Shown here: positions 12,061 to 22,824 of the stretch, piece after piece
Position numbering within the stretch: position 1 is the stretch's first letter
How the letters are laid out: every line of letters starts with the position of its first letter
IMG/VR virus record: IMGVR_UViG_3300009110_000013
Coordinates: 1-27,041 of that record
DNA: 27,041 nucleotides
Source: a virus
Reading direction: 5' to 3' (one strand)
Notes under the pieces: generated by a model
The model's database searches: none
Seen by the model: the letters and a program-made list of their open reading frames with translations, nothing else
Told to the model about the DNA's origin: nothing
Translations under genes and position numbers: made by a program

Positions 12061-12149
12061 GTCTCCACCACAAAAACATCGGCCTCACCATCGACCTGCT
12101 ACTTTGCGCAGGCATGGCGTGGCTGGTGTGGAAACTTTTAACCGCATGA
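12057..12149 (+). CDS. Single-pass membrane microprotein (30 aa)
   Basis: GTG start overlapping the upstream stop (GTGA) and a TGA overlapping the next ATG (ATGA). The sequence runs MSLHHKNIGLTIDLLLCAGM and then AWLVWKLLTA: a short polar head and one hydrophobic helix spanning nearly all the rest. The double overlap argues it is translated. It lacks a clear SD and probably depends on coupling. Function unknown. Confidence 0.45.
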   Translation: MSLHHKNIGLTIDLLLCAGMAWLVWKLLTA

Positions 12150-12490
12150 GTAAGGCGTCAAGGGACAAAGGAAAACGTGGAGAACGTGAACTCGCCCAGT
12201 TGTTTACTGGCGAGGGCTACCCAGCCAAACGGTTTGGCTTCGCACAATCACGATTCGGCGGCTGCGAAGGTGCCGATGTGGTGTGCGAAGCCTTACCGTG
12301 GCTGCATGTGGAGTGTAAGCGGTACAAAACTTTCATGGGCGCGAAGCTCAGGGCCGCACTGGAGCAGGCCGAGCGGGATCGTAAGCCCAACACCATTGCC
12401 ACGGTCTTCCACCGGGAGGACGAGTGTAAGTGGTATGTCACCATGGAGGCAGTGGAGTTCTTTAGGATAGTAAGGGGGGAGTTTGAATGA
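12146..12490 (+). CDS. Holliday-junction-resolvase-like PD-(D/E)XK nuclease
   Basis: 114 residues from the ATG at 12146 (ATGA overlap with the upstream microprotein); an earlier start at 12104 gives an unlikely leader. N-terminal basic MSKASRDKGKRGERELA (Glu15), then GCEGADVVC (Asp44) and LHVECKRYK (Glu56, Lys58) make the E...D...ExK active site of PD-(D/E)XK nucleases. The small size and RGERELAQLF start match phage and archaeal-type Holliday junction resolvases. It would resolve branched DNA made by replication or recombination before packaging. It ends within the start of the methyltransferase pair, so the three reading frames overlap at 12483-12490. A restriction endonuclease role beside a methyltransferase is a less likely alternative. 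Confidence 0.7.
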   Translation: MSKASRDKGKRGERELAQLFTGEGYPAKRFGFAQSRFGGCEGADVVCEALPWLHVECKRYKTFMGAKLRAALEQAERDRKPNTIATVFHREDECKWYVTMEAVEFFRIVRGEFE

Positions 12491-13202
12491 ACAACCCACA
12501 CACCTCGACCTGTTCAGCGGCATCGGAGGCTGGGCTATCGCAGCAGAGTGGGCTGGATACAGAACAGTTGGATTTGCTGAGTGTGCCGCCTACCCCAGTG
12601 CCGTCCTCAAGCGGCACTGGCCCCACATCAAAAACTATGGGGATGTCAGAGAAGTCACGGCAGCGAAGACAGGACGAATCGACCTCATCAGCGCAAGCCC
12701 TCCCTGCCAGCCCTATTCTGTTGCCAATAGGAACCGGGGAGACAAATCAGATGACCGCATCCTCTGGCCTGAGTTGTTCCGCTGTGTTGCAGACATCAGA
12801 CCCCGCTGGCTCGTTGGTGAAGAAACTCCTGACTTCGCAAACATGGCACTCGACGAATTACACACTAACCTGGAAGCCATCGGGTACACCACAGGGGCGG
12901 TGCTACTTCCGGCTTGTTGCCTCGGAGCAAGACACATCCGGCAGAGACTTTGGTTCGTGGCCCACACCGACAAGCCGGGACTACAAGGATACGGGAAACA
13001 TAGACAACGTTCCCGAAAACGCACTGCTTGGAAGGGCATACCGTCACACCTTTGGGGAGAACCTAGCTCCAGAATTTTCAGAGTGGTTGATGGGTTTTCC
13101 GATTGGCCACACCGCCCTTCCCGCATCCAAGCCCTCGGAAACGCCATCGTCCCACAAGTAGCTTACGAAATTCTTAAACTAACAAACGACAAAAACCCCT
13201 GA
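12483..13202 (+). CDS. DNA cytosine-C5 methyltransferase (Dcm-like)
   Basis: 239 residues from a TTG at 12483, the only start codon after the in-frame stop at 12471 and before motif I. Motif I DLFSGIGGW (9-17, AdoMet binding); motif IV ASPPCQPYS (71-79) with catalytic Cys75; motif VI is GEETPDF, where ENV is usual, keeping Glu113; motif VIII RHIRQRLWFVA (150-160); motif X LGNAIVPQVAYEIL near the end. It is shorter than typical enzymes, with a small target-recognition region. It transfers methyl to C5 of cytosine, probably protecting phage DNA from host restriction. No cognate endonuclease is obvious. Nearly the whole gene is overlapped by another open frame at 12487-13161, whose ATG lies better placed behind the SD than this TTG. 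Confidence 0.85.
   Translation: MNEQPTHLDLFSGIGGWAIAAEWAGYRTVGFAECAAYPSAVLKRHWPHIKNYGDVREVTAAKTGRIDLISASPPCQPYSVANRNRGDKSDDRILWPELFRCVADIRPRWLVGEETPDFANMALDELHTNLEAIGYTTGAVLLPACCLGARHIRQRLWFVAHTDKPGLQGYGKHRQRSRKRTAWKGIPSHLWGEPSSRIFRVVDGFSDWPHRPSRIQALGNAIVPQVAYEILKLTNDKNP
12487..13161 (+). CDS. Overprinted protein in alternative frame of the methyltransferase gene
   Basis: 224 residues in the frame shifted by one relative to the methyltransferase. Its ATG overlaps the upstream stop (ATGA) and lies five bases after the GGGGGGAG SD ending at 12481. The N-terminal half is Ser/Thr/Pro-rich. The C-terminal half has segments I recall from phage hypothetical proteins found with cytosine methyltransferases: LTWKPSGTPQGRCYFRL (127-143), WPTPTSRDYKDTG (158-170), LAPEFSEWLMGFPIGHT (193-209) and a final SETPSSHK. 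Each falls over a conserved methyltransferase motif in the other frame, so similarity could be forced by that overlap. A 224-codon open frame with its own SD and ATG suggests dual coding. Function unknown. Confidence 0.55.
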   Translation: MNNPHTSTCSAASEAGLSQQSGLDTEQLDLLSVPPTPVPSSSGTGPTSKTMGMSEKSRQRRQDESTSSAQALPASPILLPIGTGETNQMTASSGLSCSAVLQTSDPAGSLVKKLLTSQTWHSTNYTLTWKPSGTPQGRCYFRLVASEQDTSGRDFGSWPTPTSRDYKDTGNIDNVPENALLGRAYRHTFGENLAPEFSEWLMGFPIGHTALPASKPSETPSSHK

Positions 13203-13218
13203 GACAAAGGAAAAAACA

Positions 13219-13671
13219 ATGGAGAAACAGCTAGTACAGCTAAAAAATGTAGAACTAATGTGGGCAAACCTCACAGAAAAGTCAGAGATGTCGGACAAAT
13301 ATCAAGTGGACTTGGTGAATCTCGACAAGCAACAAGTAGGACTGCTGGAAGCAGCGGGCCTGACTGTAAGAAACTCCAAGAAGGAGAAGAAGAATGAGGA
13401 CAAGGGTATGTGGATCACTGCCAAGTCCAACTTCCCGCCACGGGTCTATGACGGGCGCAATGGACACGCCAAGGGGACTGCCTTCCCAGAGAATGAGCGG
13501 GTGGGCAATGGCTCCAGCGCACACATCCAACTCACTGCCTACGATTGGGAGTTCAAGGGTAAGACTGGCCGCAACGCAGGCTTGGATGCGTTGAAGATTG
13601 TTAAACTCAATGACGCGCCGGGGAGCGGCGACCCTTTCGACAGCGAGATGCCGGGAGGCGACCCGTTCTAA
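13219..13671 (+). CDS. ssb: Single-stranded DNA-binding protein (T7 gp2.5-like type)
   Basis: 150 residues. The N-terminal LKNVELMWANLTE leads into a beta-rich region compatible with an OB fold; aromatic and basic residues follow (MWITAKSNFPPRVYDGRNG at 64-82). The tail is acidic and glycine-rich, with GDPF twice and the protein ending GGDPF, the acidic-aromatic C-terminus that SSBs use to bind partner proteins. It would coat single-stranded DNA for the exonuclease, primase and helicase encoded next. SD AAAGGAAAA before the ATG. The class assignment rests on layout and tail; subfamily not certain. Confidence 0.7.
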   Translation: MEKQLVQLKNVELMWANLTEKSEMSDKYQVDLVNLDKQQVGLLEAAGLTVRNSKKEKKNEDKGMWITAKSNFPPRVYDGRNGHAKGTAFPENERVGNGSSAHIQLTAYDWEFKGKTGRNAGLDALKIVKLNDAPGSGDPFDSEMPGGDPF

Positions 13672-21723: not shown

Positions 21724-21785
21724 AAGGTTTGGCAATGTGAGGTAAACTTGGGCAAGGTTTGGCAAGGATGGGCAGGCAAGGGCAA
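21724..21785 (+). repeat. GGCA-type direct repeats over the start of the small terminase candidate
   Basis: AAGGTTTGGCAA occurs at 21724-21735 and 21754-21765, exactly 30 bases apart. GGCA recurs at 21731, 21751, 21761, 21771, 21775 and 21781. A matching TTGGCAAAT is at 21602. Iterated sites at a terS start suggest a packaging (pac/cos) site or an autoregulatory operator. Confidence 0.5.
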
Positions 21786-22388
21786 CAGATTCCACCGGCA
21801 ACACGCGCGGCGATTGTGGATGATTTGAAAGCCGGGAAAGCAATCACAGAGATTGCAACCCGGCACAGTGTTGCGCCGTCTACGGTTTCCCTGTATCGGG
21901 AGAAACACAAAGACGAATTACCCAAATGGAAACGCCGAACGCGCGAGGTGTTAATGGGTGCGGCGGAAACATTGGCCGAGCAGATCGCCAAGCAAGCGGC
22001 AAACGGTGGCGGAAACATCCAGCAGAACGCATTGAGCCTCGGAATACTTTCCACGAAAATCACCACAGAGCTTTCGGACAATCCGGCTTTGCTGGGAGTC
22101 GTCGAACACCGGCACGAAATCGGCCAAGGGCTTGGCGGTTGGCTAGGCAATACAGTGCACCAAAGCGCACCACAGCAGGAAAAGACTGCGGATGTGGTGG
22201 AAATTGAGAGCTTTACGGATGGGGACGGTGGTTCAGGGGAGCAGCGCGCGGCAGGCCAGCAGCGCACCGGCACCGGCCACGGCCAGCAGGCAAGCCAGCA
22301 GGCAAGCCAGCAGGCAAGCCAGCAGGCAAGCCAGCAGGGGGCGGGGGGGGTCGAAAATTGTGCGCCGTCTCCCTCAAATATGGATTAG
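21768..22388 (+). CDS. HTH protein, probable small terminase subunit
   Basis: 206 residues from ATG 21768 (TTG at 21759 is an alternative). N-terminal helix-turn-helix: AIVDDLKAGKAITEIATRHS then VAPSTVSLYREKH (residues 11-45). The middle is helical (AAETLAEQIAKQAANGGGN), and the C-terminus is low-complexity Gln/Ala/Ser with four QASQ repeats. An N-terminal HTH, helical oligomerisation region and position upstream of the large terminase fit a small terminase that recognises packaging DNA, and direct repeats lie over its start. A transcription regulator is the alternative. The reading frame ends shortly after a G8 run and overlaps another long frame, so its 3' end may be affected by slippage. 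Confidence 0.55.
   Translation: MGRQGQQIPPATRAAIVDDLKAGKAITEIATRHSVAPSTVSLYREKHKDELPKWKRRTREVLMGAAETLAEQIAKQAANGGGNIQQNALSLGILSTKITTELSDNPALLGVVEHRHEIGQGLGGWLGNTVHQSAPQQEKTADVVEIESFTDGDGGSGEQRAAGQQRTGTGHGQQASQQASQQASQQASQQGAGGVENCAPSPSNMD
22283..22338 (+). repeat. 12-base tandem repeat (4.7 copies) followed by G8
   Basis: CCAGCAGGCAAG repeats at 22283, 22295, 22307 and 22319, with a partial copy at 22331. It encodes QASQ units. A run of eight G lies just after (22343-22350). Both are prone to replication slippage. Confidence 0.85.
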
Positions 22389-22410
22389 GCTAGAACAAAA
22401 TTTTCGACAA

Positions 22411-22824
22411 ATGGCAACTCTAACACCTGAACGCGACATGGCAGCGGCTTTACAGTTACCGCGCAAGGAACTAGCCAGACACCGTGCGGGAATGGTGGAG
22501 GGCTTGGACTGGGAGAAGCGGGGCAGACTGGTTGTTTACACGGAAGATGGCGTCCACAAGCTCCACGTTCTTTTGGGCCTCGTAGACGCTGTTGAGTTAC
22601 CTTCCAGCACTCCGCAGTCTGCCAAGGTAACAAACGCCCGCATACGCAATCCTCGGCTCATTATGGCGGAGTATGAAGGCGAGTCAGTCTTGGTGCGAGT
22701 GAACCCGACTACCCGTGATCGTTATGTTCCGGGGATGCTTGTGCATGTCAGGCAGGATGGTGCTGGCTGGGCGGAGGCGAGCCGTCCGAGGAAGAGGGGG
22801 GTAGACAGTGTTGCGTTACGATAG
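22411..22824 (+). CDS. Hypothetical protein after the small terminase candidate (137 aa)
   Basis: 137 residues from the ATG at 22411. An N-terminal helix-turn-helix-like part (PERDMAAALQLPRKELARHR) is followed by EKRGRLVVYTEDGVHKLHVL, then a beta-rich C-terminal half (LIMAEYEGESVLVRVNPTTR, then VPGMLVHVRQDG) like a small beta barrel. No SD is visible before the ATG. The frame is open far upstream, from before 22192, overlapping the small terminase candidate in a different frame, so a +1 slip would fuse the two. Function unknown. Confidence 0.55.
   Translation: MATLTPERDMAAALQLPRKELARHRAGMVEGLDWEKRGRLVVYTEDGVHKLHVLLGLVDAVELPSSTPQSAKVTNARIRNPRLIMAEYEGESVLVRVNPTTRDRYVPGMLVHVRQDGAGWAEASRPRKRGVDSVALR

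Follow-up and report, generated by a model that had tools for sequence, protein, structure and literature searches.

Two reading frames share one stretch of phage DNA

The window, the whole 27,041-base virus sequence IMGVR_UViG_3300009110_000013, carries two long overlapping reading frames on its + strand (Table 1). One of them, alpha, is the frame of a C5 DNA methyltransferase catalytic subunit; the other, beta, lies in the +1 register and entirely within the alpha ORF (675 of 675 nt), the two start codons being 4 bases apart. The stop codon of the upstream resolvase gene (TGA, 12488-12490) overlaps the beta ATG. An earlier note on this DNA had described frames of 239 and 224 codons with a 675-base overlap, and both ORFs were found exactly so; the sequence also agrees with its placement of the beta ATG in an ATGA overlap, 5 bases past the Shine-Dalgarno-like sequence, and of the alpha TTG 1 base past it. 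The beta product comprises a WPTPTxRDYK module and a motif-IX-like element.

Table 1. Features of the methyltransferase locus and of the genes on either side of it
Feature	Coordinates	Strand	Basis and remarks
alpha, C5 DNA methyltransferase catalytic-subunit frame	12483..13202	+	TTG start, 239 aa; motif layout
beta, putative overprinted +1-frame protein	12487..13161	+	ATG start, 224 aa; phrog_1008, dual-coding tests, motif census
Shine-Dalgarno-like TAAGGGGGGAG	12471..12481	+	5 nt to beta ATG at 12487; 1 nt to alpha TTG at 12483
motif-IX-like element LAPEFSEWLMGFPIGHT	13063..13113	+	+1 (beta) frame; no alpha-frame counterpart there
upstream gene, RusA/PDDEXK-like resolvase	12146..12490	+	phrog_244, 6.5e-17; divergence control
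downstream gene, Gp2.5-like ssDNA-binding/annealing protein	13219..13671	+	phrog_112, 2.8e-12; divergence control

The alpha product matches PF00145 (3.4e-26) at 92.9 bits, above the curated cut-off of 22, and so belongs to the C5 DNA methyltransferase family, the match covering residues 8-167 only. It also matches phrog_363 (6.6e-61). The beta product matches phrog_1008 (6.2e-24) and gave no match in Pfam, NCBIfam or the PDB, including a profile search of PDB sequences. A DNA-level similarity search found nothing in phages, and a plasmid search with beta returned five weak matches only. AlphaFold models of beta from the window and of a short homologue were poor (pLDDT 63-64, pTM 0.25-0.28), and a fold search with these low-confidence models found no match; a subunit needing its partner in order to fold could give models of this quality as well.

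Elsewhere in the window, 4.8 copies of a 12-bp unit form a perfect tandem repeat, GCCAGCAGGCAA (22282-22338), inside two ORFs, 21759-22388 and 22192-22824, which share 197 nt at +1. The first of these ORFs has weak helix-turn-helix matches.

Motif IX is displaced to the second frame

Motifs I (DLFSGIGG), IV (PPCQPYS), VI (GEET), VIII (RHIRQRLWFV) and X (ALGNAIVPQ) are all present in alpha, as the earlier note had listed, but the note overlooked that motif IX is absent. The stretch that would hold it is missing in the alignment with single-chain relatives, and only ~55 residues separate motifs VIII and X. A motif-IX-like sequence, EFSEWLMGFPIGHT, occurs in the beta frame. Beta ends in LAPEFSEWLMGFPIGHT, for which the homologue consensus is LNPxWVEWLMGFPxGWTDL; this end resembles motif IX, judged by a short pattern and its position. 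Among 243 homologues, the beta frame holds the IX-like element in 228 and the alpha frame holds it in 1; for motif X, the counts are 209 in alpha and 5 in beta, and 203 homologues have the exact IX/X split. In the single-chain enzymes of Mycobacterium phage Graduation and Gordonia phages Trax and JKSyngboy, the IX element lies in-frame directly before X, and a beta profile, with nine proteins searched, finds it in all three (2e-6, 6e-5 and 3e-9, respectively). As IX is in beta and X in alpha, and as single-chain relatives carry IX before X, what beta encodes is most likely this enzyme's own motif IX module, displaced from alpha.

The segments WPTPTSRDYKD and EFSEWLMGFPIGHT of beta, which the earlier note had associated with phage hypothetical proteins linked to C5 methyltransferases, do prove to be conserved in homologues from many phages. 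In some relatives (Diva), the WPTPTxxDxK module is repeated two or three times in beta.

Mycobacterium phage Phanphagia (L323) has two 'DNA methylase' genes, 1432-2091 and 1841-2458, with an overlap of ~250 nt at +1. Its gp65 carries motifs I-VIII, while gp66, in the +1 frame of gp65, carries IX and then X; from its motifs, the pair looks like a split of the M.AquI type (see below) with an overlap.

The overlap is widespread and keeps one register

The +1 register of beta is shared by 243 homologues, a set that includes phages of Lactobacillus, Paenibacillus, Pseudomonas, Escherichia and Mycobacterium and contigs of many bacterial phyla. All 80 viral relatives picked by the alpha frame alone carry beta at +1; since these are the relatives nearest to the window, the figure describes a subfamily and not all C5 methyltransferases. 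Relatives picked by the beta frame all have a methyltransferase frame over beta (160 of 160). A further genome search yielded 37 of 40 loci with both frames in the +1 register, the other three being two chance-level matches and one ordinary methyltransferase. L299, a candidate beta relative without the overlap, was rejected as an ordinary methyltransferase that matches in its own frame, and neither the homologue nor the genome searches turned up a convincing beta relative lacking an overlying methyltransferase frame. Among 60 C5 methyltransferases drawn via PF00145 from bacterial genomes, there was one weak beta match only (3.6e-5). Hundreds of phages and prophages have kept the overlapping arrangement.

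Seven of the eight phage records first opened annotate the methyltransferase alone. In Paenibacillus phage Diva, a beta homologue is annotated in the +1 frame of DIVA_49, as DIVA_50 or 'g49 internal gene', and the annotation names no function. PHROG 1008, of which beta is a member, is annotated 'DNA methyltransferase', and its entry is silent on members being overprinted on another methyltransferase frame. We note that PHROG 1008 holds proteins overprinted on those of phrog_363, and that most public records among the matches listed annotate a single feature under a phrog_1008-type match; one frame of the pair is apparently dropped in gene calling. Our literature search, with most subscription journals outside it, found no paper treating the overlap as a phage family. 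Two-polypeptide C5 methyltransferases are already known; what is worth reporting here is the breadth of the arrangement and its near-absence from annotation.

Both frames are under protein-coding selection

Synonymous codons were permuted, which leaves both the encoded methyltransferase and the codon usage unchanged, and stop codons were scored between the PCQ and GN landmarks. Across 207 genes, the +1 frame has 192 stops where 1072 are expected, a depletion of about five-fold, whereas the +2 frame of the same genes shows none (2627 observed, 2689 expected). Genes selected only through their alpha frame have 39 stops at +1 against 357 expected, and the 60 ordinary C5 methyltransferases have 632 against 647, again no depletion. 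The window's own gene has 0 stops against a shuffle mean of 3.5, a count of zero being reached in 0.6% of shuffles, and its open beta frame exceeds chance.

Codon-position divergence was compared between the overlapped and non-overlapped parts of the same genes (113 pairs in the full set, 73 of them independent). In the independent pairs, third-position divergence relative to first-position divergence (pos3/pos1) is 1.17 in the overlap (95% CI 1.10-1.24) and 2.49 outside it (2.32-2.67), synonymous differences are 0.30 versus 0.54, and the overlap is the lower of the two parts in 66 of 73. Slowed third positions are what a second frame at +1 predicts, because third positions of the methyltransferase are second positions of beta. 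Between the window and L010, p3 is 0.31 in the alpha gene and 0.483 in the downstream Gp2.5-like gene at the same 77% identity, and the upstream resolvase, at 92% identity, shows ordinary third-position divergence (p3 0.421, p1 0.061).

Both frames are under protein-coding selection. The earlier note had suspected dual coding, to be given up if the alternative frame of homologues were full of stops and no constraint were seen beyond the methyltransferase frame; the opposite was found on both counts, with +1 stops depleted and third positions slowed in the overlap across hundreds of homologues.

Start sites of beta

In most relatives, beta opens 35-65 codons inside the methyltransferase gene. 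Its internal first ATGs have a Shine-Dalgarno match of at least 5 nt in 48% of cases, compared to 6% for off-frame control ATGs. The NTGAATG layout, in which the beta ATG follows 4 nt after the alpha start, is found in 23 genes, namely, the window and 22 other homologues. Where alpha starts Met-Asn-GA, 23 genes encode the Asn by AAT and one by AAC, with equal usage of AAT and AAC nearby. This bias favours a kept beta ATG; a kept upstream stop (TGA) could be another cause. Over the first ~35 beta codons, the 4-nt-start genes are weakly constrained (pos3/pos1 2.42), and in window-clade pairs the slowing is already present over codons 26-60. Because those first ~35 codons show little constraint in the 4-nt-start genes, the beta frame is surer than the exact beta start.

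A candidate two-subunit methyltransferase

The selection on both frames, their common register and the complementarity of motifs IX and X are direct observations, and from them we infer that both proteins are made from the locus. We consider it highly probable that they form a two-subunit C5 methyltransferase acting jointly on phage DNA. The alpha frame would make the catalytic subunit with motifs I-VIII and X, and beta, from its own start codon, a second subunit that provides the motif IX region absent from alpha and may share in target recognition; once paired, they would be an active enzyme methylating the phage's DNA. No recognizable restriction enzyme adjoins the locus, which sits within a recombination/replication module. 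Given these surroundings, the pair is probably an orphan methyltransferase protecting phage DNA, with host restriction as the probable threat.

It strikes us as improbable that beta, though a genuine protein, has a role unrelated to methylation, perhaps as a regulator or in anti-restriction, and is overprinted on the methyltransferase by coincidence. Selection on the beta frame says nothing of function, and beta has no domain match; against this, the IX element is absent from alpha and present in beta in the 203 homologues with the exact split, single-chain relatives hold that element inside the methyltransferase, and beta relatives come with an overlying methyltransferase frame, no convincing exception having been found. 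We give very little weight to the idea that beta is untranslated, its openness and similarity being a by-product of methyltransferase conservation and codon bias. The beta motifs do overlap conserved methyltransferase motifs (LTWK over DLEA), such that the similarity is partly passive. However, stops are depleted five-fold relative to the shuffles, which neither the +2 frame nor the ordinary C5 methyltransferases show, third positions are slowed in the overlap only, and Shine-Dalgarno sites stand at internal beta starts. A purely passive similarity was rejected by the shuffles, with the +2 frame and the 60 ordinary enzymes as controls, together with codon-position divergence.

Programmed frameshifting from alpha into beta, giving one fusion protein instead of two subunits, appears just as remote. 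It would fit Phanphagia, whose +1 frame holds both IX and X, so that a frameshift there would yield a complete enzyme. Most beta frames, however, begin at an ATG of their own, which a Shine-Dalgarno site often precedes, and motif X stays in alpha in 209 of the 243 homologues and would be lost by a single shift.

Returning to the two-subunit enzyme, a broader reading is that the locus is one case of a large and old family of methyltransferases, found in phages and prophages of many bacterial phyla, in which the IX module left the catalytic frame and was kept as an overprinted second subunit, with shared or nested ribosome-binding sites setting the ratio of the two subunits; we put the chances of this at about even. 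If it is true, few long same-strand overlaps in phages would be conserved as widely as this family. Apart from those of small viruses, long overlaps between genes on one strand are considered rare, and gene callers retain one frame. As both frames carry conserved, complementary parts of an apparently single enzyme in hundreds of sequences, many of the methyltransferases recorded as whole in phages and prophages are probably only half of an enzyme, and assays of the annotated gene alone may fail. The single-chain, split and overprinted forms make up a natural series for asking how overprinted genes arise, and the locus allows a test of one ribosome-binding site feeding two starts 4 nt apart.

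Comparison with known systems

Mycobacteriophage ShiLan has an out-of-frame HNH endonuclease in a methylase gene (PMC11855218) and, like the present locus, an alternative frame within a phage methylase gene. In ShiLan, the third frame encodes a homing endonuclease carried by an insertion, whereas beta overlaps the conserved methyltransferase core. A homing endonuclease of the ShiLan type was rejected for beta, which has no Pfam endonuclease match and overlaps the core and not an insertion. Separately, in Gordonia phage Getalong (L325), the +1 frame of the gp85 'DNA methylase' gene encodes, within 1429-2292, a LAGLIDADG homing-endonuclease-like stretch with a PF00961 match (8.1e-5) barely above the cut-off. 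As with the HNH endonuclease of ShiLan, this has the look of a homing element placed out of frame in a methylase gene.

The two-subunit M.AquI has motifs I-VIII split from the C-terminal part, with X together with IX in the small subunit (PMC3404938). The separation of catalytic motifs I-VIII from a C-terminal portion is common to both systems, but here X (ALGNAIVPQ) stays in the large frame, and the M.AquI arrangement of IX plus X on the small polypeptide was not found.

Two-piece C5 methyltransferases of the M.EcoHK31I kind first became known in 1995, and the specificity of M.EcoHK31I is YGGCCR. Lee, Kam and Shaw (1995) are said to have found the ORF of its small polypeptide inside the large ORF, in another frame. 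Such nesting of a second ORF within the first would be shared with the present locus, the two being likened by layout and not by sequence. M.EcoHK31I depends on a pair of polypeptides, motifs I-VIII and X lying on the larger and motif IX on the smaller, and its recognition domain has been placed in the large subunit (PMC3404938). Alpha likewise has I-VIII and X without IX, and the IX-like element is on beta. The present case differs in being a phage gene without an adjacent restriction enzyme and in that beta starts 4 nt after alpha and spans almost the whole gene. On every feature compared, the layout of the locus, for which both polypeptides are predicted to be needed, matches the M.EcoHK31I kind.
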